Below are positions 42,949-62,076 of a stretch of DNA of 64,000 bases, piece after piece. The notes under the pieces were generated by a model. That model worked only from the letters and a program-made list of their open reading frames with translations. It ran no database searches and had not been told where the DNA came from. The DNA is from Ornithinimicrobium sufpigmenti (GTDB lineage: Bacteria; Actinomycetota; Actinomycetes; Actinomycetales; Dermatophilaceae): assembly GCF_004322775.1 (NCBI RefSeq), contig NZ_CP036403.1, forward strand, positions 3,286,001-3,350,000, in the 5' to 3' direction. The translations under genes and the position numbers were made by a program. Within the stretch, counting starts at the first letter, position 1. Each line of letters starts with the position of its first letter.

Positions 42949-43006
42949 GGTGCTGTGCACCTGCGCGGTTATCGGCTGACGCCACGTCCACGTCTACCCT
43001 GCCGCC

Positions 43007-44176: not shown

Positions 44177-44269
44177 GCCGCCGGTCTGCTGTACTCGTGT
44201 CACCGCACCCGCACGCGTTGGCCCACCCCTAGCGCGCACGCAGACGCACCGCACTCGCACGGAGGAAGC

Positions 44270-45043
44270 ATGCAGATCACCGACTCGACCGTCGCCCTCA
44301 TCACCGGGGCCGCCAGCGGCCTGGGCGAGCAGACCGCCCGCCGCCTGCTCGACGCCGGCGCCCGCGTGCTGCTGGTCGACCTGCCCGGTGGGCGCGGCCA
44401 GGAGCTGTCCGACGAGCTCGGCGAGCGCACCCACTTCGCCGGCGCCGACGTCCGTGACCCGGAGCAGGTCACCGCCGCCGTGGCCGCCGCCACCGCGATG
44501 GGCGAGCTGCGGATCGTGGTCAACTGCGCCGGCGTCGCGACCCCAGGACGGATCCTGTCCCGCCGCGGCGTGCTCGACCTGGACGCCTACCGCACCGTGA
44601 TCGAGATCAACCTCATCGGCACCTTCAACGTCCTGCGCCTGGCCGCCGAGGCGATGGCGTCCAACGAGCCGGCGGGCGGCACCGGTGGAGACCGCGGCGT
44701 GATCGTGATGACCGCCAGCGTCGCCGCCTTCGACGGTCAGATCGGCCAGGCCGCCTACGCCAGCTCCAAGGCCGGCGTCGTCGGCCTCACCCTCACCGCC
44801 GCCCGCGACCTGGCCGACAAGGCCATCCGGGTCATGACCATCGCCCCGGGCGTCTTCGAGACCCCCATGATGGCCGGCCTCGGCGAGGACGTGAAGTCCT
44901 CCCTGGAGGCCCTCGTCCCCCACCCCTCGCGGCTCGGCAAGCCCGAGGAGTACGCCTCCCTCGTGGCCCACATCGTCGACAACCCCCTCCTCAACGGCGA
45001 GGTCATCCGCCTCGACGGCGCGCTGCGGATGCCGCCGCGCTGA
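44270..45043 (+). CDS. SDR-family 3-hydroxyacyl-CoA dehydrogenase (HSD10-like)
   Basis: 257-residue short-chain dehydrogenase. Cofactor motif [10 protein letters not shown], Asp in LVDLPGG favouring NAD, structural NCAGVA and the catalytic Ser/YASSK set. The C-terminal [11 protein letters not shown] and KPEEYASLV resemble type II 3-hydroxyacyl-CoA (17beta-HSD10) enzymes that oxidise 2-methyl-3-hydroxybutyryl-CoA in isoleucine breakdown. CACGGAGGAAGC before ATG is a good ribosome site. With the acyl-CoA dehydrogenase it forms a plausible branched-chain acid module. Confidence 0.9.
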
Positions 45044-45061
45044 CGGCCGAGCGCCGCACCC

Positions 45062-45469
45062 CTAGGCGACGCGGCGCGCCTCCAACTGGTCGAGCTCCTC
45101 GACCAGCACGCCGGGCAGCACCACGGCCCTGCCGTCGACGAGAGCGGTGACCCTGCGGGCGTCCGCGCCGGGCTGGTCGGTGCCCAGACGCTCGACCCGC
45201 TCCCAGCGGAGGCGGCGCGTGGTCAGGCCGTTCGACAACGTCATACCCGTCCGGTCCACGGTGGTGCCGGCCCGCATGGCGCCGATCCAGAAGAGCACCA
45301 TCCCGAGGATGAAGACGGCGCGCACGACTGTCCCGGCCGTCCACCCGTCCTCCAGCACCCCGACCACGCCGACCGCGACTGAGGTCAGGATCAGCACCAG
45401 CACGGCCCAGAAGAGGAAGGTCCGATGTGGTGGGCGCAGCGTGAGGTATGTCGTGCCGGCGTCGGTCAT
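45062..45469 (-). CDS. Membrane protein with PH-like domain
   Basis: 135-residue protein with two membrane spans (FWAVLVLILTSVAVGVVGVL and VVRAVFILGMVLFWIG) and a short PH-like beta domain (TVDRTGMTLSNGLTTRRLRWERVERL). Similar small proteins are common and uncharacterised in actinobacteria. Convergent with the SDR gene. Confidence 0.75.
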   Translation of the reverse strand: MTDAGTTYLTLRPPHRTFLFWAVLVLILTSVAVGVVGVLEDGWTAGTVVRAVFILGMVLFWIGAMRAGTTVDRTGMTLSNGLTTRRLRWERVERLGTDQPGADARRVTALVDGRAVVLPGVLVEELDQLEARRVA

Positions 45470-45591
45470 GCTCTCAGGGTACGGACGCTTTGGAGTGGGT
45501 CGGTCGGCCTGTGCGCCGGTAGCGCCGTAGACATCACTCGTATGGGTCGGGACTCTCCCCTCCCCAGGTCGAGGGGTCGCGGGGTCGCCGG

Positions 45592-45843
45592 CTACTGCTC
45601 ACCGACACCCGGCGGGTCACCGATCCGGCGCAGAATCTCCTCCGCATCCAAACCTTTGGCGACGGCCGCCCCCAGTGCGTAGGTGGCGATCGGCGCCAGC
45701 GGCCTGGCCCGCCCGTGCGCGGTGCGCTTGGCCAGCCCCAGGATGCGGGTGACCACCTCGAGGTCGAGCGGCTCCCCCGTCACCTCGGAGACCCAGGTCA
45801 GCCACTCACGATGCTCGGCCTCGATCTCCGCCGGGGTGCTCAT
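45592..45843 (-). CDS. DUF6457-like small protein
   Basis: 83-residue helical protein; GLAKRTAHGRARPLAPIATYALGAA recalls DUF6457, often found beside molybdopterin-guanine dinucleotide genes. That is consistent with the molybdate operon 2.6 kb away, but a direct link is not shown. ATG at 45843; the open frame extends upstream but without start support. Confidence 0.7.
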   Translation of the reverse strand: MSTPAEIEAEHREWLTWVSEVTGEPLDLEVVTRILGLAKRTAHGRARPLAPIATYALGAAVAKGLDAEEILRRIGDPPGVGEQ

Positions 45844-46004
45844 CGCCCCATTGTGCCGAGGTCGTGGGACGGACACCACACGGTGAACGCACAACAGGGT
45901 GGCCGAGGGGACGACGTGGAGCAGACCGGCGAGCGCAGACCGAATCAACTCGGCGTGGTGGAGCCGCCCCGCCCAGGCCGGACGGCACGGCGGGATGCCG
46001 GGGA

Positions 46005-49000
46005 TCAGGCCTCGCCGGGGACGGCCTCCGCGATCTCGGCCTGGATGCCGGCGGCGAGGCCAGCGAGCCAGGCCATGAAGTTGAAGCCGCCGACGAAGCT
46101 GCCGTCCGGGTTCCACACCATCGTGTCCAGCTCAGTCGGCTCGGGCGACGGCGCCTCCAGCACCTCCGGTGTCAGCCGCACCCCGCCGCCGCGGGTGGAC
46201 AGGGTCCGCACCGCACGCACCAGCTGCTCGGGGTCCTCGGGCAGCAGCGTGGGGGCCAGCCCGAGCCGGCCGGCGATGAGCGCCCGGCGGAACGCGACCA
46301 CCTCGGACGGGCGGCCCCGGTCGAGCCGCTCGTCGAACACCGCCACCGCCAGGGAGGTGTCGAAAGACAGCCCTCGCCGCCACAGGTGGGTGCCGCCGGT
46401 GAGCGCCCAGGCGTCGTCGACCACGACCGAGGTCGCGTCCAGGTGCAGCGAGCGGCCCGGCCCGGTCACAGGCGTGAACGCCGCGACCCGGTGCCCGCCC
46501 GCCTGCCGCAGTGCCGCCAACCCCGCCATCACCCCGGCGTTGCGCACGCGGCCCAGCTTGCTCGGAGCTCCGGGCGGCAGCCGCATCGGCACGCACACCA
46601 GCACGTGCAGTGCGGGGTTCGCCGCCAACCGCGCGGTCAGCGACCCCATCACGTCGAGCTCGTCGTCGCCCGACCCCAGCGGCAGCGCGTCCAGCGCTGG
46701 TGTCTCGAGGTAGACGAAGTCCTGCGCGCCCGCGAGCCGTGCCGCCAGCGCTGTCGCGGTCTCCCGGTAGCCCCACCGCGCTCCCAGCATCCTCCGGTTC
46801 AGTGCCCGCTGCATGCTGGTCGCAGCCTGGTCCACCACGTCCGGCACCGGGATGCCTTGACCCACCAGCCAGGTCCTCAGGTCGGCCAGCGGCTGCTCCC
46901 ACGGAAAGTCGCCCAGGCCGAGGGTGTCCATCACCTCGACCACACCTGGCTCACACTCCACCCGCGCCGCGACCGTGCGCAGCGTTGCTGCCCAGGACCC
47001 GGCGATGGTCGGCGCCGCCGGTGCGGGCAGAGGGGTCGCCGAGGCCAGGGCCAGCGCCGGCGTCTCGGGCGAGGTCCGTTCCCGAGCCAGCTCCGCGACC
47101 GCCACCACCGCCGGTCCACGCAGCCGAGCCGCCGTGCCGTGCCGCTCGTCATCGGCCGGCGCTCCTGGGTGGCCGGCTTGGTGCGTGCCCAGCTCGTGGT
47201 GCGTGCCGAGCGGTCGCACCCCTGCCACCGTCGCCTCTGCCACCCCAGACGACAGCGCAACCGCGACCACTTCGTCGCGTGCCTGCGTCGGCAGCGGTGA
47301 GGCGACCACGGGTGGTCGCAGCAGGAGGGTCCGGGCCAGCGCTCGGACGCTGGCCCCGGTGCCGGCCAGCGCTGCGTCCGTCTCGCCGCCGCGCCACCCG
47401 CGCCACGCGGGCTCGGTCAGCACGACGGTGTCTCCCGCGCCCAGCGCCTGCCCCACGGCGGGAGCGGCCCATGCCGAGGCGGGTATGGAGGTCGGGTCCA
47501 CCAGGCTGGGCGGCGTCGCCAGTGCCACGAGTGTGGAGCCGGACGGCACGGAACCGGCAGCCACCGGACCGGTCAGCTCGGTTCCGGTCTCACACACCAG
47601 GACGCTCCCGCCGGCCGAACCCAGGGCGACCATCGCGCCACCGACCGGCGCCGGCCGCTCGAGCCGCACCTCCGGGTAGCGCGTGGTGGCGGCCGCGGTC
47701 ACGACCATGATGTCGAGTCCCATCCGGTTGTTCGGCGCGACTGCCCCGTCAGCCAGACGCACCACGACGCGGGCGTTCCCGGCCGCGTCGACCAGTCCGC
47801 CGCCGCCCGCGCCCCGCAGGTGCCGACCCTTGGTCGGGTCGAAGTACTGCGGCCACACCCGGACCCAGGCCCCGGCGAGCGCCGGTCCCGTCGGCACCGT
47901 CACCAGGATCCGCTGCCCCAGGACCACGCCACCGTCGGCCGTGCCGCCCCCGGTCAGCGGTGTCGCCGTCACCCCGGTGATCGACGCCGGTGGCGGGTCG
48001 GTCGGCAGCGACGGCGCGGTGAGCGCGCCGGCACCCCGGTCGAGCACCGGCGCCAGCACGGTCGCCGGGCCTGCGTCGATCGCCGCAACGATGCTGGCCA
48101 TGGCTGCGTCCGCGCTCGCCAGCAGCACAGTGTCAGCAGCCTCCACCGTGGCGCGCGCGACGAGCGTCGACGTCGATGCTCGTGCTTGGTCAGCCGCCCG
48201 GCGCGTCACCGCGTCCGAGGCACCCGAGGGCGCCGCCCGTCGCTGCCCCGTCAGGTGCTCCTCGACGTCGACCAGCGCAATGCGCACACAGTCCCGCGTC
48301 ACGCCACCGACCGCGCTGCCACCTGCCCACAGCGAGGCCGACGGACCATAGGTGCCCCTCGGCAGGACTGCCACCCGCGGCAGTGCCGCGTCCGCCTGGC
48401 CACCCGCGGTGAGGGCGACCGTCGCTGTCTCGCTGCCCGCCACCCGAACAGCGCCGGCGCCGGTCATCCCCGTGGCCGAGAGTCGCGCGAGCACGCCTTC
48501 AGCCGCCGGCGACTCGTCGGGCCCGCACAGGATGACGGTGCGCTGGGCGTCGACGGTCGCGGTCCGCTCGTCCGCGCCGGATGCCCACAGGTTGGTGAAC
48601 GACGTCGCCAGCCGCGCCCACCACGCCGCCACCGCACCGGGGTCGATCGCACGGCCGCGGGCGTCGAACGCGAACAGCCGCACCGTGGCCTCGGTGTCGA
48701 AGTCGAGCACCGCGTCGGTGCCGCCCAGGAAGGTGCCCGGCCGCTTGAGGTCGGCGATCGGGGTGCCCTCCAGCCCCAGGTAGCGGCGCTTCTCCTCATC
48801 GCTCATCGACCCCGGCAGCGGCGGCACCAGCCTGTCCTCCAGGCTGCTCAGCGATCCCGGGTCACCGGGCAGCTCGAGCGCGAACGTGCGCACCACCGCC
48901 CGGGTGACGCCGGTGCTCGACCCGTCGGCCGCGGGGACGTCGGCCAGCAGCGCCCCGAGCCGGGCCTCCACCTCGGGGAGCAGCCGGAACGTCGCCACGT

Positions 49001-49247
49001 ACCGTCCGTCCTGGAACGGCGGTGTCCCGGCAGGGCCCCGCATCCCGGCGAGCGGTGTCGTGCCGGCCACCGCGAAGGACAGCAGCCCAGTCGCCGGAGG
49101 CAGCCAGCTGGTGCCGTCCGGGATGGTCAGGGTCACCCCGAGGTCGTCGGACGAGGGCACCGGCAGCGTGAGGTCGGTGGAGAACCAGGGTCCGAGCAGC
49201 GGCGCCTCGAGGCCGAGCTGCCCGGGTGCCGGCACGAGCGCGGTCAT
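46005..49247 (-). CDS. Giant-operon protein 3: beta-rich protein with degenerate PLD-like module
   Basis: 1080-residue protein that I do not recognise as a whole. No signal peptide or membrane span. Residues about 400-560 contain a beta-rich Ig-like stretch (GQRILVTVPTGPALAGAWVRVWPQ). Residues about 820-990 resemble a phospholipase-D half-domain: LHLDATSVVVDDAWALTGG, followed by RRGLSFDTSLAVAVFDE. The catalytic HxK is changed to His935-Leu-Asp937, so phosphodiesterase activity is doubtful. The ATG at 49247 overlaps the stop of protein 2, with GGAGG ten bases upstream. Last gene of the operon; 161 bases separate it from the DUF6457 gene. Confidence 0.85.
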   Translation of the reverse strand: MTALVPAPGQLGLEAPLLGPWFSTDLTLPVPSSDDLGVTLTIPDGTSWLPPATGLLSFAVAGTTPLAGMRGPAGTPPFQDGRYVATFRLLPEVEARLGALLADVPAADGSSTGVTRAVVRTFALELPGDPGSLSSLEDRLVPPLPGSMSDEEKRRYLGLEGTPIADLKRPGTFLGGTDAVLDFDTEATVRLFAFDARGRAIDPGAVAAWWARLATSFTNLWASGADERTATVDAQRTVILCGPDESPAAEGVLARLSATGMTGAGAVRVAGSETATVALTAGGQADAALPRVAVLPRGTYGPSASLWAGGSAVGGVTRDCVRIALVDVEEHLTGQRRAAPSGASDAVTRRAADQARASTSTLVARATVEAADTVLLASADAAMASIVAAIDAGPATVLAPVLDRGAGALTAPSLPTDPPPASITGVTATPLTGGGTADGGVVLGQRILVTVPTGPALAGAWVRVWPQYFDPTKGRHLRGAGGGGLVDAAGNARVVVRLADGAVAPNNRMGLDIMVVTAAATTRYPEVRLERPAPVGGAMVALGSAGGSVLVCETGTELTGPVAAGSVPSGSTLVALATPPSLVDPTSIPASAWAAPAVGQALGAGDTVVLTEPAWRGWRGGETDAALAGTGASVRALARTLLLRPPVVASPLPTQARDEVVAVALSSGVAEATVAGVRPLGTHHELGTHQAGHPGAPADDERHGTAARLRGPAVVAVAELARERTSPETPALALASATPLPAPAAPTIAGSWAATLRTVAARVECEPGVVEVMDTLGLGDFPWEQPLADLRTWLVGQGIPVPDVVDQAATSMQRALNRRMLGARWGYRETATALAARLAGAQDFVYLETPALDALPLGSGDDELDVMGSLTARLAANPALHVLVCVPMRLPPGAPSKLGRVRNAGVMAGLAALRQAGGHRVAAFTPVTGPGRSLHLDATSVVVDDAWALTGGTHLWRRGLSFDTSLAVAVFDERLDRGRPSEVVAFRRALIAGRLGLAPTLLPEDPEQLVRAVRTLSTRGGGVRLTPEVLEAPSPEPTELDTMVWNPDGSFVGGFNFMAWLAGLAAGIQAEIAEAVPGEA

Positions 49248-52200
49248 GGTGCGACCACCTCCTCGCTCGGTGCGGCGCGGCGGCCGATCGGGTCGGTCAC
49301 GACCACCCGGTATGCCGTGCCCACCGGAACCGTCGGGTCCGGGTCGACGACGTCGAAGACGCCGCCGGTCCCGGCCATCCCCGGCACGGCTGTCGCCAGG
49401 CGCGCTGTTCCGCCCGGAGGTCGCCGGTACACGTCGATCGTGTAACCAGCGCTCGCACCCGGTGCCAACGGCCCCGGATGGGTGAACCGCACGTGCACGC
49501 CGGCCGCGTCACGGACGACGGACAGCCCGGTCACCCCGGCGGGCGGCTCTGCGGGCATCACCGTCGTCGACGCGGGTGCCGAGGCCGGTGACCATTCACC
49601 CTCCGGGCCGCCGCCGGGCAGGTCCGGACCCGCCACCTCGACCCGCCAGGCGTAGCGAACCCACCCCGAGAGCGAGGTCCGGGTCACGCCGGGTGCGGCA
49701 CCGACGTCCACGATCTCGAAGCTCTGCTGGCCGCCGCTGGGCGCGCCGGGCGGGACCACCCCTTCGGCGACGATCGGCATGAGGGCCGGGTCGGTCGTGG
49801 CAGTCGCGCGCCGCATCCGCCAGCGCGCCGCGAGCGTGGGGCCGACGGGCACGGTCACCGTGATTCGAGCATGCAGCTCGCCCGCGGCGGTCGTGGTCGG
49901 CCGCACCCCGATGGCCGGTGTCCGCGGCGCCAGCGCGTTCGGGACCGCGCGCGGCAGGATCGGCGAGCTGCGGAAGTCGGACTCGACGCTCGCGGCGCTG
50001 ACCGCGACCACCCGGTAGAGCACCAGCACCGTCAGTGACCCGGAGACCTGGTGCCGGAACGTGGTGGTGGGGGTGGCAGGGAGTGGCTCGGCCGTGAGCT
50101 GGAGGAACCACCGTCGCGGGAGTATCTCCTTGTGGACCTCCCACGCCTGGGCCCGCTCGGGAGTCCCGGGAGCCCCCGAGAGGTCGTCCAGCAGTGCCTG
50201 CGCCTGCGCGGCCGAGGGCGCCTCGCCGGCATCCCCCTCCGCGAGGATGCCGGCCGCGATCTCCTCGAGCTTGGACCGCATCGTGGACTCGTCGGCCACG
50301 AACACCCGGAACGACGCCTGGCCCGGCTGCGACGTCCAGGACAACGTGGTCTGTGCCCATCCGGTCACGTCCGGTCGAGCGGTGTAGGTCAGGTCTGCCG
50401 GCAGCAGCACCGGGGCAGGTGCACGCGGGTCGTGCAGAGTGGCGCTGCGTGGCTCGCTGGCCTCCGAGGCCACACCGGCCGTGTCGAACCATCGCGCGGT
50501 CACGGTCACCGTCCCTGACGTGGTGGGCAGCAGCGCGGGCCCGGGCACCGTCACCACGACGGTGTCCCCCGAGACCGGGTGCACTGACACGGTGGGACCG
50601 CCGGTGCTCGGCGTCACGGTCAGCTCGGCCTGCGCGAGTGCGCGGCCACCGGGCGGCAGCGAGGAGATCGGTGGCACCGGCACCTCGATCCGCACCGTCC
50701 CTGCGAGGGGCCCGGTCGGTGGGGGGAGGGGGACGACAGGGGGCGAGCTGGCCAGCAGGACCACCGGCCGTGGCGGCCTCGGGCGCGGTGCGGGGCCGAA
50801 CGGCCGCCGCCTCCAGCCCGACCATCGGCCGAACCAGTCCGCCTGCGCGATCTGCCACGTGCCGTCGTCCTCGCTGACGCCGCGGTCGGTCAGTCGCCCC
50901 TGCATGGGCGAGGTCGCCGTCGGTGGCTGGCTGGGGCCGAGCAGCGTCATGCGGCCGCTGCCGTCGTCCAGGTGCCGGCTCTGCGGGTCCTTGCCGTTCG
51001 GCTGGGCGATCGCGGAGGCGAGTGCCGCCGCGGCGACGAGTCCGTCGAGGTCGGCGGTCAGCCGGCGGGAGGCGGTGGGTGGGGCGACCGACTGCCAGGT
51101 GCCGTCCCAGGTGACGTTCATCGCCGGGGGGCTGGGCACGTCGAGCGGTTCGAAGGCGGGCGCCACGAGCACCATCGTGAGGCGGACGGTCGGCCCCGTC
51201 TCGTCCCCGCCGTCCCAGGACTCGTCCACCTCCGTGGCCAGCTCCTCGACCACCTCGCGCGGCTTCTGCGCATCCGGCAGCGATCCGCTCAGCCCGAGCT
51301 TGCCGATGGTGTCCAGGTCGGCCGCGAACGCGCCGGTGACGTGGTAGACGGCGACCACCGTCTGGTCCATCTCCTCCAGGTCGATGTCGCCGAACGGCAG
51401 CCACCGGGCGACGCCGGGGTCGAGGGTCGCCTGCAGCAGCGTGGCCAGCAGGCTCCGGTCGGAGGTGCCGGCTGCTGGACCGACCCCGGTGAGGGGCGCG
51501 GCGTCGACCAGGTCCTGCTGGCTGGCCGAGGTGTCGTTGACGAGCCGGTCCAGATCCTTGCGCAGGGCGTGACCGAGGTGGTTGACGCGCGCCTCCTCCT
51601 CGCCGGGGCCGGCGGGGTCACAGGCGGCCGGTCCGGCGGCCAACGGTTGCTCGTGCAGACCGTAGCGGGTGGGTGACGCGTCGCGCGCCCTGGCGATGCC
51701 GCGGTCCCAGCCGTCCGACGGCCCGGCGTACCGGGCACCGGGGCCGCAGGGCAGCGGCAGCGTGCGTGCGGGCCTGCCCACCGGCAGGTCTGCGGGCCGC
51801 AGCCACCGGATTCCGTTCACGGTGCCGGACCCGCTGAGCACCACGCGCTCCAGGTGAGAGGCATACACGAGGTATGGGGCCCGCGAGCGCTGGGCGACCG
51901 ACGCGTCACCCAGGGCCGTGCCGACCACACCCTGCACCCGCAGCCCCGCCTGCCGCGTCCGCGCCGGATCGCGTCCCGGCGTCACGACCGGGGGTCGCGT
52001 CGGCTCCACCACGAGGTCGTCTGCGGACCGGACCAGGTCGAGCGGACGCAGGATCGGGCGGACCGGTCCGCGGATCGGTCCGCTGGGGCCATCGCCGACC
52101 GTCTTGCCCGGCCTGGCCTCCACCCACGCCCAGCACGCCGACTGCGGCAGATGCCCGGTCACCGGGTTGTCCGGGGTGACGGTGAAGGGCGGGGTGAGGA

Positions 52201-52414
52201 TCGTGCCGTTGCTGGCGACCCAGATGACGTCCGTGCGGGCGAGTCGCACCAGGTGGGCGAGGGTGGTCCGCTCCTGGTGCACGACGATCGGGCACACCGG
52301 TAGCCCGAGCAGCGGGTTGGTGACGATGCGCAGGTGGGTGCCCTCGGCCAGGTGGGTGTCACCGTGGCCGTGCAGAGCCTGGCCGCTCATCGCCCAGGAG
52401 GGTGAGAGGTTCAC
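49244..52414 (-). CDS. Giant-operon protein 2: Ig/FN3-like repeat protein
   Basis: 1056-residue protein of unknown function. Residues 1-120 form a compact N-terminal domain (IVTNPLLGLPVCPIVVHQ, DVIWVASNGTILTPPF). Residues about 270-420 are helical (NHLGHALRKDLDRLVND). From about 540 there are several beta-sandwich repeats like Ig or fibronectin type III, for example TVRIEVPVPPISSLPPGG, TTLSWTSQPGQASFRVFVAD and ITVTVPVGPTLAARWRMRRA, joined by Pro-rich linkers. No signal peptide. GTG start overlaps protein 1 by four bases, with GGAGG seven bases upstream. Likely structural or adhesive, by inference only. Confidence 0.85.
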   Translation of the reverse strand: MNLSPSWAMSGQALHGHGDTHLAEGTHLRIVTNPLLGLPVCPIVVHQERTTLAHLVRLARTDVIWVASNGTILTPPFTVTPDNPVTGHLPQSACWAWVEARPGKTVGDGPSGPIRGPVRPILRPLDLVRSADDLVVEPTRPPVVTPGRDPARTRQAGLRVQGVVGTALGDASVAQRSRAPYLVYASHLERVVLSGSGTVNGIRWLRPADLPVGRPARTLPLPCGPGARYAGPSDGWDRGIARARDASPTRYGLHEQPLAAGPAACDPAGPGEEEARVNHLGHALRKDLDRLVNDTSASQQDLVDAAPLTGVGPAAGTSDRSLLATLLQATLDPGVARWLPFGDIDLEEMDQTVVAVYHVTGAFAADLDTIGKLGLSGSLPDAQKPREVVEELATEVDESWDGGDETGPTVRLTMVLVAPAFEPLDVPSPPAMNVTWDGTWQSVAPPTASRRLTADLDGLVAAAALASAIAQPNGKDPQSRHLDDGSGRMTLLGPSQPPTATSPMQGRLTDRGVSEDDGTWQIAQADWFGRWSGWRRRPFGPAPRPRPPRPVVLLASSPPVVPLPPPTGPLAGTVRIEVPVPPISSLPPGGRALAQAELTVTPSTGGPTVSVHPVSGDTVVVTVPGPALLPTTSGTVTVTARWFDTAGVASEASEPRSATLHDPRAPAPVLLPADLTYTARPDVTGWAQTTLSWTSQPGQASFRVFVADESTMRSKLEEIAAGILAEGDAGEAPSAAQAQALLDDLSGAPGTPERAQAWEVHKEILPRRWFLQLTAEPLPATPTTTFRHQVSGSLTVLVLYRVVAVSAASVESDFRSSPILPRAVPNALAPRTPAIGVRPTTTAAGELHARITVTVPVGPTLAARWRMRRATATTDPALMPIVAEGVVPPGAPSGGQQSFEIVDVGAAPGVTRTSLSGWVRYAWRVEVAGPDLPGGGPEGEWSPASAPASTTVMPAEPPAGVTGLSVVRDAAGVHVRFTHPGPLAPGASAGYTIDVYRRPPGGTARLATAVPGMAGTGGVFDVVDPDPTVPVGTAYRVVVTDPIGRRAAPSEEVVAP

Positions 52415-55400
52415 GTCCCGACCTCCTGGTAGACGGTCCGGGGAGCCACGAGCGCCGACCGGGCGCCGGTGACGACGGTCGACGACGTGCCACCGGTGCG
52501 GTCGGTGACGGTGCGGGTCAGCTGCACCACGAGCGGGCCGGCCTGGAACGCGTCGGTCCCGGAGGGACTGACGGCGGTGGGTGCGGCGGGCGCGAGCAGC
52601 ACCCGGGTGCCGTTGGTGTTGCGTCGGCGTGCGGTGAGCGGCACCCCTCCGTGCACGCAGGAGGTGACCTCCAGTGCGCGTCGACCGGTGCGCACGATGG
52701 GCTCCGGCAGCTCCAGGACCACGCCCGCCAGCAGCCAGTCGTCACCGTCGCGCCACCACAGCACGCTCGTGCGCCCGGCCTCCGGCAGCGGCCAGGGGTC
52801 GAGCCCGACCGCAGCCATCGCCTCGTCGAGCTCACGGTCACCGACCACGAGCGGTCCCGGCGGCACCGGGCCGGTGACGATCGCGTCCGGGGCCACCAGC
52901 GGGTTGGGATCCGCGGTGAGACCCAGGGCGGCGAGCAGCTCGCGGGTGTCGCGGTGCCAGGACGCCTGGAAGTGCGCCCGCTGCACCACGAGGTCCTCGG
53001 AGTCGGGGTCAGCGCTCGGTGTCGCCATCAGCATGAGGTCGTACCAGGCACCGGGGACGAGGTCGGCCGTGATCTCCCCGGTGCTGCCGCCCAGTGGTGG
53101 CTCCTCCAGGCACGGCGCGTCCCGTACCGCCTCGAGGAACCGTTTCTGCCCCAGCGGCCGGTAGGCGTCGTGCAAGGGTCCCCAGGTGACGTCGATCGGC
53201 TCGTCCGGTGCGTGCGGCAGGCCGGCGAGGGAGCCCGGCGGCGGGTCGGTGCGGCGCAGCCGCATCCCCAGCCGGCGCCCGTACAACGCCGCCAGCTGGT
53301 CGAGGTGGTCCACCGCCAGGTGCACCCGCAGCTCGTCGTCGAGCAGGTGCGGGGCCTGCCCGGTGTCCGGCTCGAACGCCAGCAGGTAGCGCATCAGCGA
53401 GCGCGGGTCGAAGCTCTTCTCATCGGTGAGCTCGGTGGGCGGGTTGCCGCTGGTCGTCGCGTGCGACGCGGTCCGGAACCGGCGGACCACGTCTGGCCCG
53501 TCCTGCCACTCGGACGGGCTGGGGAGGGCGTCCGGTTGGGGCTTGGCCTCGGACTTCGCCCAGCCCTGCCACTGCCACCTGACCCTGACCCGGTATGCCG
53601 TGCCGGCGGCGAGCAGGCTACGGTGCGGCGCCACCAGGCTGTCACCGCCCAGCCCGTTGATGACGGCGGTGAGCCCGTCGGCGTAGGCGGCGTTGCCGTC
53701 GGCCAGCAGCTGCGCCGAGCCGCTGACCCCGCACAGCCGCTGCCAGCCGACCCGGGCCGGCGGCCGCCTGCCGCCCGCCCACTCGTGGACCCTCACACCG
53801 CGCCAGGGGCCGGGCTCCCGCGGCCGGTACACGACGACTGCGCAGGTCCCGGTGCCGTTCCGGTAGACGTGCTCGACCGTGGGTTCCCACTCCCGCTCGC
53901 CGCCGCCCACCGGCGACCCGGTGACCCGCGGCAGCTCGCTGCCCTCGGGCTGCTCGGGCGATGAGGAGCCCCAGCAGATGCGCTCGATCCCGAGCCAGGT
54001 GGCGCCATACAGCTCGACCGCCACGATGCCGGCGCCGGTCAGCACGATCGTCTGCTCCCAGTCGCCCTGCGGGTCGACAAACCCGCTGTCCACCCCGTGG
54101 CCGTGCTCATCGAGGGCGTTGAGCTTGACCGACCCGTTGTCCCACATCCGGATCCGCACCTCGACACGGTCGGACGTCTGCGGCAGGTGGGCGATCATGC
54201 CGCCCTCGGGCACCAGCACGGTGACCGGGTGGCCGCGCGTGGTGAACGTCCCGCCGTGGGAGTCGATCTTGACGCCGTCGATCGAGCTGGAGGTCCCCAG
54301 GTCCAGGTCGGCCCGGTGGTGGTCGGCCACGATCGCGCAACGTCCGGCGCGGGGCTGCTGCGGACGCTCGCGATGGTCGTCGCAGACGACGAGCACCAGC
54401 TCGGGGTCGATCACCTCGGGCGCGAGCGTCACCCGCAGCTCGGTCGTCCTCTCGGTGAAGCCGAGCCGGGTGGCGGCGGCGAGCCAGAAGACGTCCTCGG
54501 CGACGTGACCGGGGACCAGGGCGAGGCCCTGCTCGGTCAGCCACGGCGCGGCGAGCTCCAGCAGCCGGCCGGCGATCCGTTCCCGGGCGTGGCCCGCGAA
54601 CCGGGACGGGAACGGTGGGAGGCCGAGGTCCTCGGGCGGCAGGTGCACCGCGTCGATGCCGGTGCGTTCGGCGTGCTGGCCGAGCAGGCACGCGCGGGTC
54701 GGCTGCGGCCGTGGCTCGCACAGCCGGCCGGGGGTCTGAGCCGGGTCGCCGTCGGTGCCGGCGCCACCGTCGGTGAGCCAGTACGTCCACGGCGCCGGGT
54801 CCCACGACATCAGCGCGAGAAACATCGCCTCTTCGGCGGAGACGGCGACGTCGCCGCCGGCCAGGACGCCTGGGCGGTGGGTGGGCAGCCACCAGCCCGA
54901 GGCCAGCGGTCCGTCCAGCGCTGCTCCGCCGTCGGGCACGATCTCGACGCCGGTCAGCCGATAGGCGTACTTCATCTCTGAGGTGCCCGACCACACCGGT
55001 CCCGGCGGGGGCGCACCGGGCGCGAACGCCGATCCTGACAGGTCGAGGGCCATGTGGTGGGTCAGCTCGATCACGGGCACCGTGTCCGGCCAGACCGTCT
55101 GCTCCGGTCCAGGTGCGCCGCTGGTCGCCTCGGCGGTCGTGTGGCCGCGCCGGTCGGTGAGCGAGACCTTCCCGACCGGGGGTGGCGGTGGCGGCGCGGT
55201 GGGTGTCAGCGGGTCGCCGATCGAGATCCCGACGCACCCGGAGACGGAGAAGAAGAAGAAGGAGACCTTGCCGCAGAACTTCCCGGAGAGGTTGACCTTG
55301 ACCCCGCCTTGCTCCCAGACCGTGCAGATCAGCTCGCCAGAGACCTCCAGCTCGACGATGACCAGCGACAGGGTGCCCCATACCTCGAACAGGCCCTTGA

Positions 55401-58400
55401 GCAGGAACGGGCTGGTGCCCAGGCCCACGAGCATCCGGGCGCCGGCTGCGAGCTTGAGCGGTCCCGCCTCCCAGCCGATCTCGATGCCGGCCCCGAAACC
55501 GATCGAGAACCCGTCGAAGCTGAAGCGGGGGTCCCCGCCCAGCTTGTGCAGCTTCTTCTCCTCGACCATGAGGAAGGAGTACGCCTCGATGTCGAGGGTG
55601 CCGGGCAGCAGGATGATCTGCACCGGGTCGCCGCCGCGACCCTCGGAGATCACGCCGTCGGAACCGACCCGCACGAACGCGTCCTGGGGGGTGCTCGGGT
55701 AGGGGAAGTAGCCGTCGATCGGGACGTTGAGGGTGAGCACCTTGGGGATCTCGTACCGGCCGCGGATCCCGACGAGCACAGCCGTATCGTCGATGACCAC
55801 CAGCCCCAGGATCTCCAGCCCGCTGCCGGGGGCGCTGCCTTGGGCCTTGGGCACCAGGTCCGGCTTGCTCGCCAGCTTTGCGTCGATCGCGAAGATCACC
55901 TCCGGGTCGGGGAACGCGACCACGAGCATCCCGACCGCGTTGAAGGTGAAGGCCTGGTCGGGCATGGTTCCGACCACGACCCCCAGCCCGATCGCCCACT
56001 GTCCGCGCTCGGGTCCGAACTTGTCGAGCAGCGGGGTGTTGCGGTACCAGGCGATCTCCCGGCCGACAGGGTCGTGCTCGAAGCCGCTCGGCAGCTGCCG
56101 GGCCCCGTTGGAGACGAACATCCCGAGGAAGCCGTAGATGCCGAGCCCGGTCGCGCCCAGCGGGATCCCGACCGGGAGCAGCAGCCCGAGCTGGATCGAG
56201 AGGTAGTCGTGCGCCGGGTAGAACTCCAGCGCGCCCATGCCCTTGGCACCCACCGAGACCAGCTCGAGCTCCAGCGAGGCCCCGAAGGCGCCGCCCTCGC
56301 CGAGCACCACCTGTCCGCTGCCGCGGAGCACGCCCGGGATGTCCACGCCCAGGGCGAGGCCGCGCACCTCGGCCGAGATGCCGCCGTCGGCGAAGATCAC
56401 CCGCACCGTGGCGCCCTGGATGCTCACCACCCCGAGGTCGAGCGCGAACGCCAGGTCGCACTCGAACCACGACGAGCCGGAACCGGCCCGGGTGGCGGTG
56501 ATCGCCAGCAGGTCGCCGAGCGGGCCGTCGATCTTCCACCGGCCGGGGTCGGAGACCTCGAACGAGACGTCCTCGAAGACGAAGCCGACCTTGTCGTACC
56601 ACTCGGTGGCCGTGTCGTCATACTCGAGCCCGACCTTGGTGTACCGGACCTTGAGCGGGTGCCCGTCCGCGGTGGCGATGGAGCCGAGGCCGGCAGCAGG
56701 CACGTTGAGGCCGACGGCGGCCGTGTAGTCGACCGTGACCCGCAGCTTCATCCCCCGTGTCGACTCGATCGACGGGGCCCGGTACTCGGCCGAGACGGTA
56801 TGCAGGACGATCCAACCCTCCTTGGTGATGGTCGCCATCACGGCACTCGCGATGGCCAGGGCCGACATCTGCACCACGCCGTCGGCCGCTCCCCCGCCGC
56901 CGATGCCGCCGAGCAGCGCGGGTGCGAGCGCGAGGGCGACCGCGAGGAAGGACGACTCGAGCTTCGCGATGCCCTCCGGGTCGCCCTCCGAGGCGACCGA
57001 CACCGAGAACAGCGTCTGACCTGACCGGTTGTCGTAGGCCCAGCGTCCGGTGATGATCCAGATCTCGGTCGAGGGCGTGCCAGCGGATCCGGACGGCGAC
57101 GTGACCGGCACATCGGTCTCGTTGTCGTTCTCGTCGGTCATCGTCACGTGGTCGCTGGACCAGGCGAGCGTGATCTCGGCCAGGGTCGGGACGGCGTCGG
57201 CCCAGCTGGTGACGGTCGGCGAGTCCCACGCCACGTGCAGCCGCACGAGGTAGCCGAGCCGGCTGTTGGGGTCCCCCGGCGGGGCGATCACGGTCGCGTC
57301 GGGACCGGGCACGTAGGAGCGGCGCAGCGCCGGATCGGTGGTCTGCGGGGCGGTCGAGGCCTGCTGCCCCTGGGCCGGGGCGTCCGCCGGCGGGGTGTAG
57401 GTGCCGCCGACGGCGTAGACGTCGACGCGACGGTAGCGCTCCCGGACCGGGTGGGGGCGGATGGCCTGGCCGTTGGCGTCGACCCAGGTGTCCCGGGTGG
57501 CCTGCGAGTGGTCCAGCATGATCGTGCGGCCGGCGGCCCGCTCGCTCGCGCTCATCTCCGAGATGGGCACACTCTGCTGGGTGGTCAGCACGGCACCGGT
57601 GGCGGCCTCCTGCTCGCCCCGTGCGTCCACGACGCCGCTGGGCAGATGCTGGGCGATCGAGGCGATACGGCTGCGGGCCAGACCCCGGTTCTGGTCGTCG
57701 CTGCCGATGTCGCAGCAGTGCCCCACGACGAGGAACCGGGCGCCCGGGAAGCAGCGTGCCCACTGCCGGATCTCGACCGGGACGTTGCCGGTGGTGCTGT
57801 TGGGCGCATAGCTGCCCCAGCCCTCGGGGTCGGCGCTGTTGAAGCCGTAGCGCACCGACAGGTGCCGGATCTCCGCCTCGGTGACCGGGGGCGGCGGCGT
57901 GCTCGGGTCGGTGCCGGCGCCCCGCCCGAGGGTGACGGCGGCCAACGCCCCCTCCGGGACGGTGACGCCGACCGTGCCGCCCAGCGTCGCCGGCTCGCCG
58001 GCCGTGACATAGCTGCCGTCGCGGTGGAAGCGGGTGAGGTCGTAGGTGGACTCCACACCGCGGACCTCGACCAGTGCCCCGTTGGCGTCGCGGACCCCGT
58101 CCTCGCAGCCGATCAGCAGCTCGCCGTCCTCGAGCACGTCCACGCGGATCCGGCGCGTGCGGTCCTCGATGCTGACCTCGACGTAGGAGGTGCCGACCTC
58201 CTCGACCAGCACGACGAAGTCGTCCCCGCGGCGGACCCGGGCGTCGGCGCCGGTGCCGTGCTGCCAGGTGACCTGGGACTCCTCGCCGGGCTGCGGAGGG
58301 TCGACCATGGCGGCGAGGCTGACCAGGTTGACGGCCTCCCGTGAGCCGGAGATCGACACCACGTTGGGGTGGCTGTGCGCCTCGGTGCTGACCTGCGGGC

Positions 58401-59571
58401 CGTGCTGGGGGTCGCCGGCCTCCTGGGTGAAGGTGTAGGTGATCGGGAGGTCGTCACGGCGTTCGCCCTCCACCACCTCGGAGTAGACGGCCTTCATGTT
58501 CTCGCCGACCGAGGTGGCGAACCAGCCGGTGTCCGGCTCCTCCACCCTGGTCGTGTCCGGCAGCGTCCAGCTGATGCGGGGCTGGGTCGGTTGACCCTGC
58601 ACCGCGTCGGAGAGCTGGGCGCGCATCCGCCCGGTCTGCGGGGTGTCGGTGACGAACGGCACCGTCAGCTCACGTCCGCTGCCGGCGGGGCTGCGCGGAT
58701 GTTCGGTGCCCTCGACGTCCTGGGTGAACTGCACGGCGGCACCCGAGATCGGGGTGCGGCCCAGTTCGACCGAGACGCTGCCCTGCAGGCCTGCGGGGCT
58801 GCCGAGGATGACGTCCTTCACCGAGACGTTGATCTGCTCGACGGCCGTGCCCTTGATCGGCAGCATCACGGTCGCCTCGGCGATGGCGATGCCCTGCCAG
58901 CCGGCGGTCTGGCCGCGCGCGGTCACCTCCGGCGGCGAGATCTGCTCGGTCGCGTCATACACGACCCGATCCACGACCATGCCGTAGTCGGAGTCACCGA
59001 AGGTAAAGCTGATCGGGTCGAAGGTCAGGGTGCCGACCGTGCCGTTCGGTGCAGCGGGGTCGAACGGGTCAGGAAAGTCGACGAACCGCATGAGCTCTGC
59101 TGCACCGGTGAGGTCGATCCGCAGCACGCCGGAGCCGACGAGCCGGACGACGCCCCCTGCCCGGTTCGGGATCAGGTGGGCGGGCGAGCTGCTGGTCGCC
59201 GGCACCAGCGTCGCGGGCCGCAGGCCCGGGAAGGTGACGGCAACCCGGTCGACCACCAGGTCGAGGTATGCGGAGTCGGCGGCCGGCTCCAGCGTCTGGC
59301 CTGCGGAGGGCTGTCGCCTGACCCGCACAAGCCGGAACGGCAGCCCGGTGTTGAGGCCAGGGATCTCGACGGGCCAGCTGCGCAGGGTCACCGGGTCGAC
59401 GTCGAGCAAGGGCCGCACCACGCCCTCGTGGATGAAGGTGCCGGGGCTGGTCGAACTGTGCAGGTCGGTGACCGCGAGGTTCTCCAGCCACGTCGCGATC
59501 TCATCCGGCAGCAGCGCCTGCCCGCCCCCCGGCGCGAACAGGTCGAGCAACGTGACACCGCGCTTCGCCAT
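52411..59571 (-). CDS. Giant-operon protein 1: 2386-residue protein with OmpA-like module and glycine-rich beta region
   Basis: Very large protein, not recognised as a whole. It opens MAKRGVTLLDLFAPGGGQAL with no signal peptide. Residues 1-350 are beta-rich. Residues 565-725 resemble an OmpA C-terminal domain (VVGHCCDIGSDDQNRGL, RYRRVDVYAVGG). Residues 870-915 are hydrophobic (SFLAVALALAPALLGGI). Residues 950-1455 form a long Gly-rich beta region (GLGIYGFLGMF, GFGAGIEIGWEAGPLKL) reminiscent of DUF6603 proteins. The C-terminal 900 residues contain carbohydrate-binding-like and Ig-like segments. First gene of a coupled three-gene operon; GGGGG precedes the ATG. Composition matches the surrounding genome, so recent transfer is not obvious. 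Confidence 0.87.
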   Translation of the reverse strand: MAKRGVTLLDLFAPGGGQALLPDEIATWLENLAVTDLHSSTSPGTFIHEGVVRPLLDVDPVTLRSWPVEIPGLNTGLPFRLVRVRRQPSAGQTLEPAADSAYLDLVVDRVAVTFPGLRPATLVPATSSSPAHLIPNRAGGVVRLVGSGVLRIDLTGAAELMRFVDFPDPFDPAAPNGTVGTLTFDPISFTFGDSDYGMVVDRVVYDATEQISPPEVTARGQTAGWQGIAIAEATVMLPIKGTAVEQINVSVKDVILGSPAGLQGSVSVELGRTPISGAAVQFTQDVEGTEHPRSPAGSGRELTVPFVTDTPQTGRMRAQLSDAVQGQPTQPRISWTLPDTTRVEEPDTGWFATSVGENMKAVYSEVVEGERRDDLPITYTFTQEAGDPQHGPQVSTEAHSHPNVVSISGSREAVNLVSLAAMVDPPQPGEESQVTWQHGTGADARVRRGDDFVVLVEEVGTSYVEVSIEDRTRRIRVDVLEDGELLIGCEDGVRDANGALVEVRGVESTYDLTRFHRDGSYVTAGEPATLGGTVGVTVPEGALAAVTLGRGAGTDPSTPPPPVTEAEIRHLSVRYGFNSADPEGWGSYAPNSTTGNVPVEIRQWARCFPGARFLVVGHCCDIGSDDQNRGLARSRIASIAQHLPSGVVDARGEQEAATGAVLTTQQSVPISEMSASERAAGRTIMLDHSQATRDTWVDANGQAIRPHPVRERYRRVDVYAVGGTYTPPADAPAQGQQASTAPQTTDPALRRSYVPGPDATVIAPPGDPNSRLGYLVRLHVAWDSPTVTSWADAVPTLAEITLAWSSDHVTMTDENDNETDVPVTSPSGSAGTPSTEIWIITGRWAYDNRSGQTLFSVSVASEGDPEGIAKLESSFLAVALALAPALLGGIGGGGAADGVVQMSALAIASAVMATITKEGWIVLHTVSAEYRAPSIESTRGMKLRVTVDYTAAVGLNVPAAGLGSIATADGHPLKVRYTKVGLEYDDTATEWYDKVGFVFEDVSFEVSDPGRWKIDGPLGDLLAITATRAGSGSSWFECDLAFALDLGVVSIQGATVRVIFADGGISAEVRGLALGVDIPGVLRGSGQVVLGEGGAFGASLELELVSVGAKGMGALEFYPAHDYLSIQLGLLLPVGIPLGATGLGIYGFLGMFVSNGARQLPSGFEHDPVGREIAWYRNTPLLDKFGPERGQWAIGLGVVVGTMPDQAFTFNAVGMLVVAFPDPEVIFAIDAKLASKPDLVPKAQGSAPGSGLEILGLVVIDDTAVLVGIRGRYEIPKVLTLNVPIDGYFPYPSTPQDAFVRVGSDGVISEGRGGDPVQIILLPGTLDIEAYSFLMVEEKKLHKLGGDPRFSFDGFSIGFGAGIEIGWEAGPLKLAAGARMLVGLGTSPFLLKGLFEVWGTLSLVIVELEVSGELICTVWEQGGVKVNLSGKFCGKVSFFFFSVSGCVGISIGDPLTPTAPPPPPPVGKVSLTDRRGHTTAEATSGAPGPEQTVWPDTVPVIELTHHMALDLSGSAFAPGAPPPGPVWSGTSEMKYAYRLTGVEIVPDGGAALDGPLASGWWLPTHRPGVLAGGDVAVSAEEAMFLALMSWDPAPWTYWLTDGGAGTDGDPAQTPGRLCEPRPQPTRACLLGQHAERTGIDAVHLPPEDLGLPPFPSRFAGHARERIAGRLLELAAPWLTEQGLALVPGHVAEDVFWLAAATRLGFTERTTELRVTLAPEVIDPELVLVVCDDHRERPQQPRAGRCAIVADHHRADLDLGTSSSIDGVKIDSHGGTFTTRGHPVTVLVPEGGMIAHLPQTSDRVEVRIRMWDNGSVKLNALDEHGHGVDSGFVDPQGDWEQTIVLTGAGIVAVELYGATWLGIERICWGSSSPEQPEGSELPRVTGSPVGGGEREWEPTVEHVYRNGTGTCAVVVYRPREPGPWRGVRVHEWAGGRRPPARVGWQRLCGVSGSAQLLADGNAAYADGLTAVINGLGGDSLVAPHRSLLAAGTAYRVRVRWQWQGWAKSEAKPQPDALPSPSEWQDGPDVVRRFRTASHATTSGNPPTELTDEKSFDPRSLMRYLLAFEPDTGQAPHLLDDELRVHLAVDHLDQLAALYGRRLGMRLRRTDPPPGSLAGLPHAPDEPIDVTWGPLHDAYRPLGQKRFLEAVRDAPCLEEPPLGGSTGEITADLVPGAWYDLMLMATPSADPDSEDLVVQRAHFQASWHRDTRELLAALGLTADPNPLVAPDAIVTGPVPPGPLVVGDRELDEAMAAVGLDPWPLPEAGRTSVLWWRDGDDWLLAGVVLELPEPIVRTGRRALEVTSCVHGGVPLTARRRNTNGTRVLLAPAAPTAVSPSGTDAFQAGPLVVQLTRTVTDRTGGTSSTVVTGARSALVAPRTVYQEVGT

Positions 59572-59696
59572 GGTCGACCCCCGGCGTTGGAATAGTGCTG
59601 CGAACGTAACACCGGGCCGACCAGCGCGTCAGGAGAATGCCTGAGCCGCCGCTGAAGCCGTCGCCCTGGCCGTGCCGCTCCCCCGCTCGGCGACGT
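59572..59696. promoter_or_regulatory. Likely promoter region of the giant three-gene operon
   Basis: 125 bases between the start of protein 1 and the stop of the oxidoreductase gene, both on the minus strand. The first 50 bases upstream of the start are less G+C-rich than their surroundings and contain TACGTT and ACTATT. No terminator hairpin was found, so read-through from the oxidoreductase gene is possible. Confidence 0.35.
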
Positions 59697-60677
59697 TCAG
59701 GTGAGGTAGGCGTCGGCGAAGAGCTCGACGGACCGTAGCCGCTCCTCCACCCGAGGGCCTTGGTGGGCGACGATGAGCTCATCGGCGCCGGTCTGCTCCG
59801 CGAACTCAGTCACCTTCTCGCGGACGACACCGGGTGTGCCGACCGCGGTGTAGGTCATCATCTGGTGCAGATGCTGGGCCTGCGGCAGGGCCAGCAGTTC
59901 GTCGGCCTGCTCGTCGGTGTACTGGGTGCCTGGACGCACGAGCAGTGCCACGCGGCTGCGCATGAGCTCCTGCAGCTGGCGCTCGGCCTCGGCCTGGTCG
60001 TCAGCGGCAACGACGTTGTACGCGGCCATGACGTAGGGCTTCTCGAGCTGCTCGGATGGCTGGAACTCACGCCGGTAGAGCGCGATCGCCTCCTGGAGGG
60101 CGGCCGGGGCGAAGTGCGAGGCAAAGGCGTAGGGCAGCCCGAGGGCAGCGGCCAACCCGGCTCCGAACAGTGATGAGCCGAGGATGTACAGCGGCACCCC
60201 GGTGCCCTTGCCCGGGTAGGCGTCGACATTGGGGATGAGTGACTGTCCACGCAGGTAGCCCTGGAGCTCGAGCACGTCCTGGGGGAAGCTGTTGGCGGAG
60301 GCGGCATCCCGCCGCAGAGCGCGCATCGTGTTCTGGTCACTGCCCGGCGCACGGCCCAGGCCCAGGTCGATCCGGCCGGGGTGGAGGGTCTCGAGCGTGC
60401 CGTACTGCTCGGCGATGATCAGCGGGGCGTGGTTGGGCAGCATGACCCCGCCGGAGCCGAGCCTGATGGTCTTGGTCTGGGCTGCGACGTGGGCGATGAG
60501 CACCGAGGTCGCGGAGGACGCGATCGAGGCCATGTTGTGGTGCTCGGCATACCAGACCCTCCCGTAGCCGGTCTCCTCCGCCTTCTGTGCCAGGGCCACC
60601 ATGCCGGCCAGGGACTCGGCGACCGTCTGGTCTCGGGCGACGGTGGCGAGGTCGAGCATGGAGATGGGGAGAGGCAT
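59697..60677 (-). CDS. Luciferase-like LLM-class flavin oxidoreductase
   Basis: 326-residue TIM-barrel flavin-dependent oxidoreductase. Hallmarks: [36 protein letters not shown] (the YxEHH motif) and [19 protein letters not shown]. It resembles the MsnO8-type monooxygenase group; substrate unknown, FMNH2 from a separate reductase expected. ATG at 60677 with GAAGGG upstream. Same strand as the giant operon, which begins 125 bases downstream, so it could be cotranscribed. Confidence 0.9.
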
Positions 60678-60985: not shown

Positions 60986-62071
60986 TGTACTGACCACGGA
61001 GGTTAGGTACGGGACCGGGGTGTCGACGTGACATGAGGAAGACCTCCGAGTGAGGTGTGGAGCTGTCTAGGAACACACCCCTCATCCCGGAGGTCTTCAT
61101 GGTCCACGCTAACGCTCCGCTGTCTCCTGCTGGCCGGTTGCGGCTGGCTCGGTGCGTCGTCGATGACGGCTGGGCACCAGCTCGTGCTGCCGAGCGGTTC
61201 AACGTCTCGCTCACTACGGCCAGGCGGTGGGCCGGCCGGTACCGCGCCGAGGGGGTGGCGGGGATGGTGGACCGCTCGAGCCGGCCGACCAGCTGCCCGT
61301 ACCGCACCCCACGCCGACAGGAGCGGCGGGTGGTCGGGCTGCGGGTGTCCCGCCGCTGGGGACCGGCCCGGATCGCCTACCGCCTGGGCATGCACCCCTC
61401 GACCGTGCACAAGATCCTGACCCGCTACCGGTGCCTGCGGCTGTCCTGGACCGACCCGGCCACCGGGGCACCGGTGCGCGCGCAACGGCGCAAGGTCCGC
61501 CGCTACGAGCACGCCGCGGCCGGTGACCTGGTCCACGTGGACATCAAGAAGCTGGGCCGCATCCCCGACGGCGGCGGCCACAAGGTCGCCGGCCGCCAGG
61601 CCGGCAAGAAGAACCGCAAGGGCATCAGGCACGGCTACTGGTACATCCACAACGCCGTGGACGACCACAGCCGTCTGGCCTACAGCGAGCTGCTGCCCGA
61701 TGAGCGCAAGGAGACCGCCGCGGGGTTCTGGGCTCGCGCGAACGCCTACTTCGCCGCGGCCGGGATCACCGTGGCCAGGGTGCTGACCGACAACGGAGCC
61801 TGTTACCGCTCACACGCCTTCGCCGCCGCCCTCGGCGAGGACATCAAGCACAAGCGAACCCGGCCCTACCGACCGCAGACCAACGGCAAGGTCGAGCGGT
61901 TCAACCGCACCATGCTGGAGGAGTGGGCCTACGCCCGCCCGTACACCAGCGAGACCGAACGCGTCGCCGCCTTCCCGACCTTCCTTCATCACTACAATCA
62001 CCACCGCGGCCACACCGCACTCAAGGGCGCCCCACCGGCTGACCGCGTACCTAACCTCCGTGGGCAGAACA
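60986..62071. mobile_element. IS481-family insertion sequence
   Basis: A 1.09-kb element with 26-base inverted ends, 60986-61011 and 62046-62071, which differ at two positions and start TGT / end ACA. Both ends are flanked by CCTAGG (60980-60985 and 62072-62077), the likely target duplication. Because CCTAGG is its own complement it could instead be part of the ends. It carries one intact transposase gene. Confidence 0.88.
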
Positions 62072-62076
62072 CCTAG
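61099..62076 (+). CDS. IS481-family DDE transposase
   Basis: 325-residue integrase-type transposase: N-terminal helix-turn-helix (LARCVVDDGWAPARAAERFN), then the rve core with Asp in LVHVDIKKLG, Asp in VLTDNGACYRS and Glu in NGKVERFNRTMLEEW. Start at ATG 61099 just after CCGGAGG; an ATG at 61057 is less likely. The TAG stop lies in the CCTAGG next to the element's end, so the reading frame is closed by the target site rather than by the element. Confidence 0.92.
   Translation: MVHANAPLSPAGRLRLARCVVDDGWAPARAAERFNVSLTTARRWAGRYRAEGVAGMVDRSSRPTSCPYRTPRRQERRVVGLRVSRRWGPARIAYRLGMHPSTVHKILTRYRCLRLSWTDPATGAPVRAQRRKVRRYEHAAAGDLVHVDIKKLGRIPDGGGHKVAGRQAGKKNRKGIRHGYWYIHNAVDDHSRLAYSELLPDERKETAAGFWARANAYFAAAGITVARVLTDNGACYRSHAFAAALGEDIKHKRTRPYRPQTNGKVERFNRTMLEEWAYARPYTSETERVAAFPTFLHHYNHHRGHTALKGAPPADRVPNLRGQNT

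Follow-up and report, generated by a model that had tools for sequence, protein, structure and literature searches.

A conserved three-gene cassette of giant proteins in distant bacteria points to an undescribed machine that may act at or outside the cell envelope

Three giant genes of Ornithinimicrobium sufpigmenti, designated A, B and C, have relatives that occur as trios in the same order in distant bacteria, which suggests that they encode a machine of several proteins that has not been described so far and that may act at the cell envelope or beyond it. The genes were analysed within a stretch of 64,000 nucleotides (hereafter the window) of a genome represented by a single contig of 4.17 Mb. 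From the sequence comparisons below we regard it as very nearly certain that A, B and C form one real system.

Results and Discussion

Operon layout

The coordinates, strand and lengths given for the three genes in the original prediction, which was made from the sequence of the window, were matched exactly (Table 1). The four-base overlaps that it described were also found, with GTGA at the A/B junction and ATGA at the B/C junction. Its assignment of a clear ribosome site to each gene was borne out for B and C, which are preceded by AGGAGG, but is weak for A, because a G-rich stretch alone lies upstream of that gene. When compared with the Serinicoccus copy of the cassette, dN/dS was 0.16 for A, 0.20 for B and 0.14 for C, and the corresponding values against the O. 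cavernae copy were 0.26, 0.31 and 0.22. Given this range (0.14–0.31), the three frames were accepted as real genes, all under purifying selection.

Table 1. Features of the A-B-C cassette (nucleotide positions are those of the window).
Feature	Position	Strand	Details
Gene A, core protein	52411-59571	minus	2386 aa, ATG start
Gene B, FN3-like adaptor candidate	49244-52414	minus	1056 aa, GTG start
Gene C, third protein, probable C-terminal PLD-like domain	46005-49247	minus	1080 aa, ATG start
AGGAGG ribosome site of B	52422-52427	minus	7 nt upstream of B start
AGGAGG ribosome site of C	49258-49263	minus	10 nt upstream of C start
OmpA-like domain of A (~residues 564-683)	57523-57882	minus	family profile, and Pfam in homologues
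Hydrophobic segment of A (residues 868-915)	56827-56970	minus	hydropathy
DUF6603-related amphipathic beta-type region of A (~residues 960-1450)	55222-56694	minus	
Ten-cysteine stretch of A	53110-55275	minus	residues 1433, 1446, 1618, 1628, 1730, 1745, 1866, 1910, 1947, 2154
FN3-like stretch of B (~residues 895-985; profile positions 893-982)	49460-49732	minus	best E 0.0025
Probable PLD-like domain of C (residues 835-977)	46317-46745	minus	H and K of HxKxxxxD replaced

Conserved gene order and co-divergence

Relatives in the protein database at E ≤ 1e-3, the window's own entries included, numbered at least 92 for A, at least 72 for B and at least 96 for C (lower bounds; ∼8000 candidates were scored per search). 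Where database names were given they were mostly "hypothetical protein", the exceptions being one A relative named OmpA-like and two C relatives named PLD-like. The nearest copies of the cassette were those of Serinicoccus, Ornithinimicrobium and Pseudactinotalea.

A scan restricted to one genome per species detected an A relative at 44 loci, distributed among the Actinomycetota, three proteobacterial classes, the Myxococcota and the Gemmatimonadota. Gene order was assessed by tblastn with the window proteins as queries, because antisense frames hid some of the B genes. B followed A in all 40 loci with room for it; in the remaining four, the contig ended inside or just past a partial A. C followed B in 32 of the 38 loci that could be assessed (it could not be judged in L010, L016, L024, L034, L037 and L043). 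In six loci C was absent despite sufficient room (L021, L022, L027, L029, L036 and L042), and a profile of C found no match among the frames of these loci; C is thus not always needed. Some B and C matches were partial, owing to contig ends or to broken frames such as those in L045 and L047. Every locus that held more than one of the genes had them in the same order and on the same strand, so that the triplet order across phyla, which had been put forward as the check on whether the three genes act together, was found to be kept.

The three proteins also diverged in parallel. Pairwise distances among 21 copies, including the window, were correlated at 0.989 (A-B), 0.982 (A-C) and 0.981 (B-C), and for each gene pair none of 5000 permutations reached the observed value. 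These comparisons drew on the 30 B loci and 24 C loci with whole matches, after removal of B from L033 and L035 (internal stop). For A, 37 of the 44 loci were taken into the alignment, with L045 and L047 left out as matched in several pieces, and removal of L030 (internal stop) and L044 (broken frame) left 35 sequences, or 36 with the window. The set for one A region (A3) comprised 34 loci plus the window, and that for C 23 loci plus the window. The broken frames of A in L030 and L044, as read from the contigs, and the matches in several pieces at L045 and L047 may reflect either decay or sequencing error.

Distribution, transfer and flanking genes

The cassette was sparsely distributed. A was present in 3 of 38 genomes in a first search of relatives (own genome included), in 6 of 296 genomes of the class sample (own genome plus five with distant A relatives) and in 2 of 396 genomes of the phylum sample, one of these by a weak match. 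A Serinicoccus contig matched the window at 85.7% over positions 46000-59582 and no further, within a compared span that extends ∼3.5 kb past C and only ∼350 bases before A. A same-genus genome free of the cassette was collinear with the window over 42862-45878, after which collinearity broke; no insertion site with both junctions could be defined from 27.6 kb of this relative, compared with the own genome as far as 60 kb beyond the window.

In a quick tree of the A region, Demequina (Actinomycetota) was placed among Alphaproteobacteria, Sphingobium with Anaeromyxobacter and Methylibium with Nannocystis, all at starred branches, although the tree was built without bootstraps and has long branches, and genome bins may contain foreign contigs. 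These placements fit transfer between phyla. A mobilizable Paracoccus plasmid carried A and B, with C not detected. Taken together, the cassette looks patchy and horizontally transferred between phyla, and the operon is not confined to actinobacteria. A phage origin was rejected, as no relative was present in viral contigs, phages or PHROGs, and no viral record encoding the cassette was found.

Clustering of neighbouring genes placed no family besides A, B and C in more than 4 of 48 records (a set that includes the window and L001-L003, which duplicate genomes, and that reaches only ∼3–4 kb past C), and a larger operon extending beyond the three genes was rejected on this basis. Flanking genes varied by host. 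Those that could be identified were ordinary (recBCD in Halomonas, for example), while Pfam gave no match for several others. In Halomonas nitroreducens (L018:205-9787) the cassette comes after recC-recB-recD-type genes, and two further Halomonas loci (L015 and L046) also have recB- and recD-type families upstream. In the window, a luciferase-like gene (59697-60677) is read in the same direction as the cassette and A starts 125 bases after it. Among 31 genus genomes searched, this gene had an 85–86% match in only one other, in two copies, and an IS481-type transposase gene (61057-62076) follows. In O. cavernae the cassette is bracketed by a 2088-aa PKD-repeat gene (L058:3500-9766, minus strand) and a 3138-aa RHS-repeat gene (L059:3867-13283, plus strand). 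The view that no toxin genes flank the operon therefore needs to be qualified, since toxin-type genes can do so elsewhere.

The genomic context also bears on whether the proteins could be cargo or accessories of extracellular contractile injection systems. A sheath gene was present in all four cassette-bearing genomes of the genus (G000, G007, G019 and G333, the last counted as positive by identical coordinates) versus 15 of the 27 others, for a genus rate of 19 of 31. However, across all cassette genomes a sheath match was obtained in only 18 of 39 (17 over the cut-off), leaving 21 without one, albeit with the caveat of incomplete genomes, and the sheath gene of the own genome is located ∼1.3 Mb from the cassette. 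Such a role is disfavoured by the 21 genomes lacking a match, and we consider it highly improbable. The own-genome gene in question belongs to the sheath family PF04984 (G000:C1:2037639-2037896) and possibly represents a contractile injection system or a prophage.

Deeper relatives and the third gene slot

Among more distant loci, the gene next to A was a distant B in L055, L056 and L057 (profile probabilities of 96, 95 and 94%, respectively). In L054, A was followed by a clear B (100%) and then, in place of C, by a 435-aa hemopexin-repeat protein (L054:16625-17932). Reading the latter as a metalloprotease, on the strength of a HEAVH motif noted by eye, was rejected when no Pfam support was obtained at E ≤ 5. 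A divergent A-B-C trio was located on megaplasmid pRtrCIAT899c of Rhizobium tropici CIAT 899 (L063:8278-22695), with an A-like protein at E 3e-108, a B-like protein at a probability of 84% and a C-like protein at E 5e-51 and 99.7%. Of all the pairings observed, A with B is thus the most constant, and C is an old partner that is kept less regularly.

A third slot that holds C, the hemopexin-repeat protein of L054 or nothing would suit a secretion-independent antagonism complex, with A as carrier, B as linker and C or its replacement as cargo or tip. Three-part toxin complexes consist of three large genes in one operon, with no signal peptides. A-B-C is alike in being a single operon of three giant proteins without signal peptides; it is also patchy and mobile, and it is flanked in O. 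cavernae by RHS and PKD genes. In contrast to this likeness, no family is common to A-B-C and toxin complexes at E ≤ 1 in Pfam or NCBIfam, the window copies matching no toxin-complex, RHS or effector family at that threshold, and no adjoining gene is common to more than 4 of the 48 records. Furthermore, C is conserved along its length (76–88% identical to three close relatives) and looks catalytically dead, unlike variable cargo. An antagonism complex of this kind is conceivable, though we think it unlikely.

Comparison with known families and systems

The original prediction that nothing identifies the operon with a described system held in searches of Pfam, NCBIfam, PADLOC and PHROGs. Neither A, B nor C of the window had an NCBIfam match better than E 0.3, or a match at E 0.1 in PADLOC or PHROGs, and window A matched no Pfam family at E ≤ 1; the lack of a PADLOC model match led us to reject a known defence system. 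Among the titles listed in literature searches, none dealt with the cassette. Thus we found no characterised system matching A-B-C by family, solved-structure-sequence or literature searches, although a fold search could change that.

One of the closest families is DUF6603 (PF20248), a domain of unknown function. Aligned over 770 columns, A shares 31% identity with a relative, P0084, which matches DUF6603 over residues 997-1226 with 26.8 bits against a cut-off of 27, and PF20248 was matched at E ≤ 0.01 by 4 of 10 more distant A relatives. The likeness to DUF6603 proteins accordingly consists of the P0084 link and of a B-like gene adjoining distant A relatives, whereas the window's own A differs in obtaining no PF20248 score at Pfam E ≤ 1.

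Architecture of protein A

Protein A comprises, in order, an N-terminal region, a possible Ig-like stretch, an OmpA-like domain, a hydrophobic segment, an amphipathic beta-type region and a cysteine-bearing C-terminal half. No convincing internal repeats were found in A, nor domains common to A, B and C. The OmpA-like module, claimed from the start, was supported. It had a Pfam match (PF00691) in 5 of 15 homologues, the window copy not being among them, and the A family profile matched solved OmpA-like domains with a best E of 1.5e-7. Key residues G617, D621, N628, L631, R635 and E653 were kept in 36 of 36 sequences, and we take the equivalents of D621 and R635 in other OmpA-like proteins to bind the diaminopimelate of peptidoglycan. 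Unlike other OmpA-like domains, this one resides within a 2386-aa protein that has no clear signal peptide and is also present in Gram-positive bacteria.

Within the amphipathic region, the beta-type hydrophobic moment reached 1.4–1.6 per 60-residue window at residues 1021-1140 and 1321-1460, whereas B and C, the only controls, peaked at 1.09 and 1.12, respectively. This alternating hydrophobicity, together with the hydrophobic segment 868-915 that precedes the region and the PLD-like partner C, would be compatible with a lipid-handling machine in which B and C anchor A and its amphipathic region shapes a hydrophobic groove or tube, as in bridge proteins of the AsmA or VPS13 type. That possibility is countered by the absence of any Pfam family for window A at E ≤ 1 and of any solved chain matching the A3 profile at E ≤ 10, and by the presence of the cassette in actinobacteria, which are without a proteobacterial-type outer membrane; judged from sequence features, it strikes us as improbable.

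Conservation of the ten cysteines of A ranged from 33 of 34 sequences to 36 of 36, while at the 90% level B had no conserved cysteine and C had one. Their conservation fits disulfides and hence a place outside the cytoplasm, although they could instead be metal ligands. Consistent with the predicted lack of a signal peptide, no clear export-type hydrophobic N-terminus was recognised in A by hydropathy (which is not a signal-peptide predictor) across 35 loci. The highest 19-residue value, 1.85, came from L040, where part of the stretch precedes the likely start; the stretch scanned in L033 is not an N-terminus. An assembly that stays inside the cell, as a cytoplasmic scaffold or storage structure, would agree with this result and with the lack of a recurrent export gene adjoining the cassette, but it sits poorly with the ten conserved cysteines and with an OmpA-like domain whose key residues are intact, and we rate it as quite unlikely. 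The proteins had been proposed to be either intracellular or non-classically exported; because the ten cysteines are kept and D621 and R635 are present in 36 of 36 sequences, an intracellular A appears less likely than an extracytoplasmic one.

Proteins B and C

Pfam matches of B were limited to weak Ig-like or tail-adaptor families (E 0.03–0.2, below cut-offs). The FN3-like sequence that had been suggested for B was supported in its C-terminal part, where the best match was to a contactin FN3 domain at E 0.0025.

Profile comparison of residues 835-977 of C with 17 phospholipase D (PLD) proteins (PF13091) from related genomes gave an alignment of 118 columns, which falls on the second catalytic domain of these proteins. 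The alignment scored 37.9, whereas 100 column shuffles reached at most 23.7 and the reversed profile scored 15.2; the profile probability was 51%, falling to 26–30% with a longer slice. Profile comparison did not find the first half of PLD in C, a search of solved chains with the C profile (A6) gave no hit at E 10, and the Pfam PLD families were matched by 0 of 16 members of the C family at E 0.1. None of the 24 rows of the alignment had an intact catalytic HxKxxxxD motif: D, A, S, M or T stood at the H position and T or S at the K position. The D of the motif was retained, as were a glycine and RRG, and many rows had an H two residues earlier. C thus resembles the PLD superfamily in its profile alignment and differs from it in the missing catalytic H and K and in the Pfam result. 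The degenerate PLD-like module foreseen for this protein is supported to that extent, and C probably carries a dead PLD-like domain. In vertebrate FAM83 proteins, an inactive PLD is described that serves as an anchor (PMC6008594).

Proposed mechanism and significance

Our tentative reading is that A-B-C is a horizontally spread assembly that may leave the cytoplasm without a classical signal and work at the cell envelope. Its starting points are the single conserved unit and the modules described above, of which the PLD-like module is the least certain, and the steps built on them are conditional. The complex would exit the cytoplasm by lysis or another route, after which A would be stabilised by disulfides and would dock on peptidoglycan through its OmpA-like domain, with the hydrophobic face of its beta region set against or into membrane or lipid. 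B may link A to C as an elongated FN3-type adaptor, and the dead PLD domain of C would serve for binding, of lipid, nucleic acid or a partner, and not for cutting. The lack of a clear export signal in A and of a recurrent neighbour gene speak against such envelope docking.

Regardless of mechanism, ∼4500 residues of coding capacity have stayed together in a single cassette in several phyla. The cassette is under purifying selection and shows signs of transfer, yet no characterised family explains it. One extension of the envelope-acting model, which on sequence grounds we find rather doubtful, is that A-B is an old two-protein chassis that spread between phyla and is assembled with no secretion signal. 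It would dock on peptidoglycan and contact membranes by its amphipathic body, with an exchangeable third slot taken by C, a hemopexin-repeat protein or nothing. If true, the A-B chassis would represent a kind of protein machine acting at the envelope for which no counterpart has been described. If A-B-C does prove to be an envelope-acting complex, it would be a type of machine present in both Gram-positive and Gram-negative bacteria.
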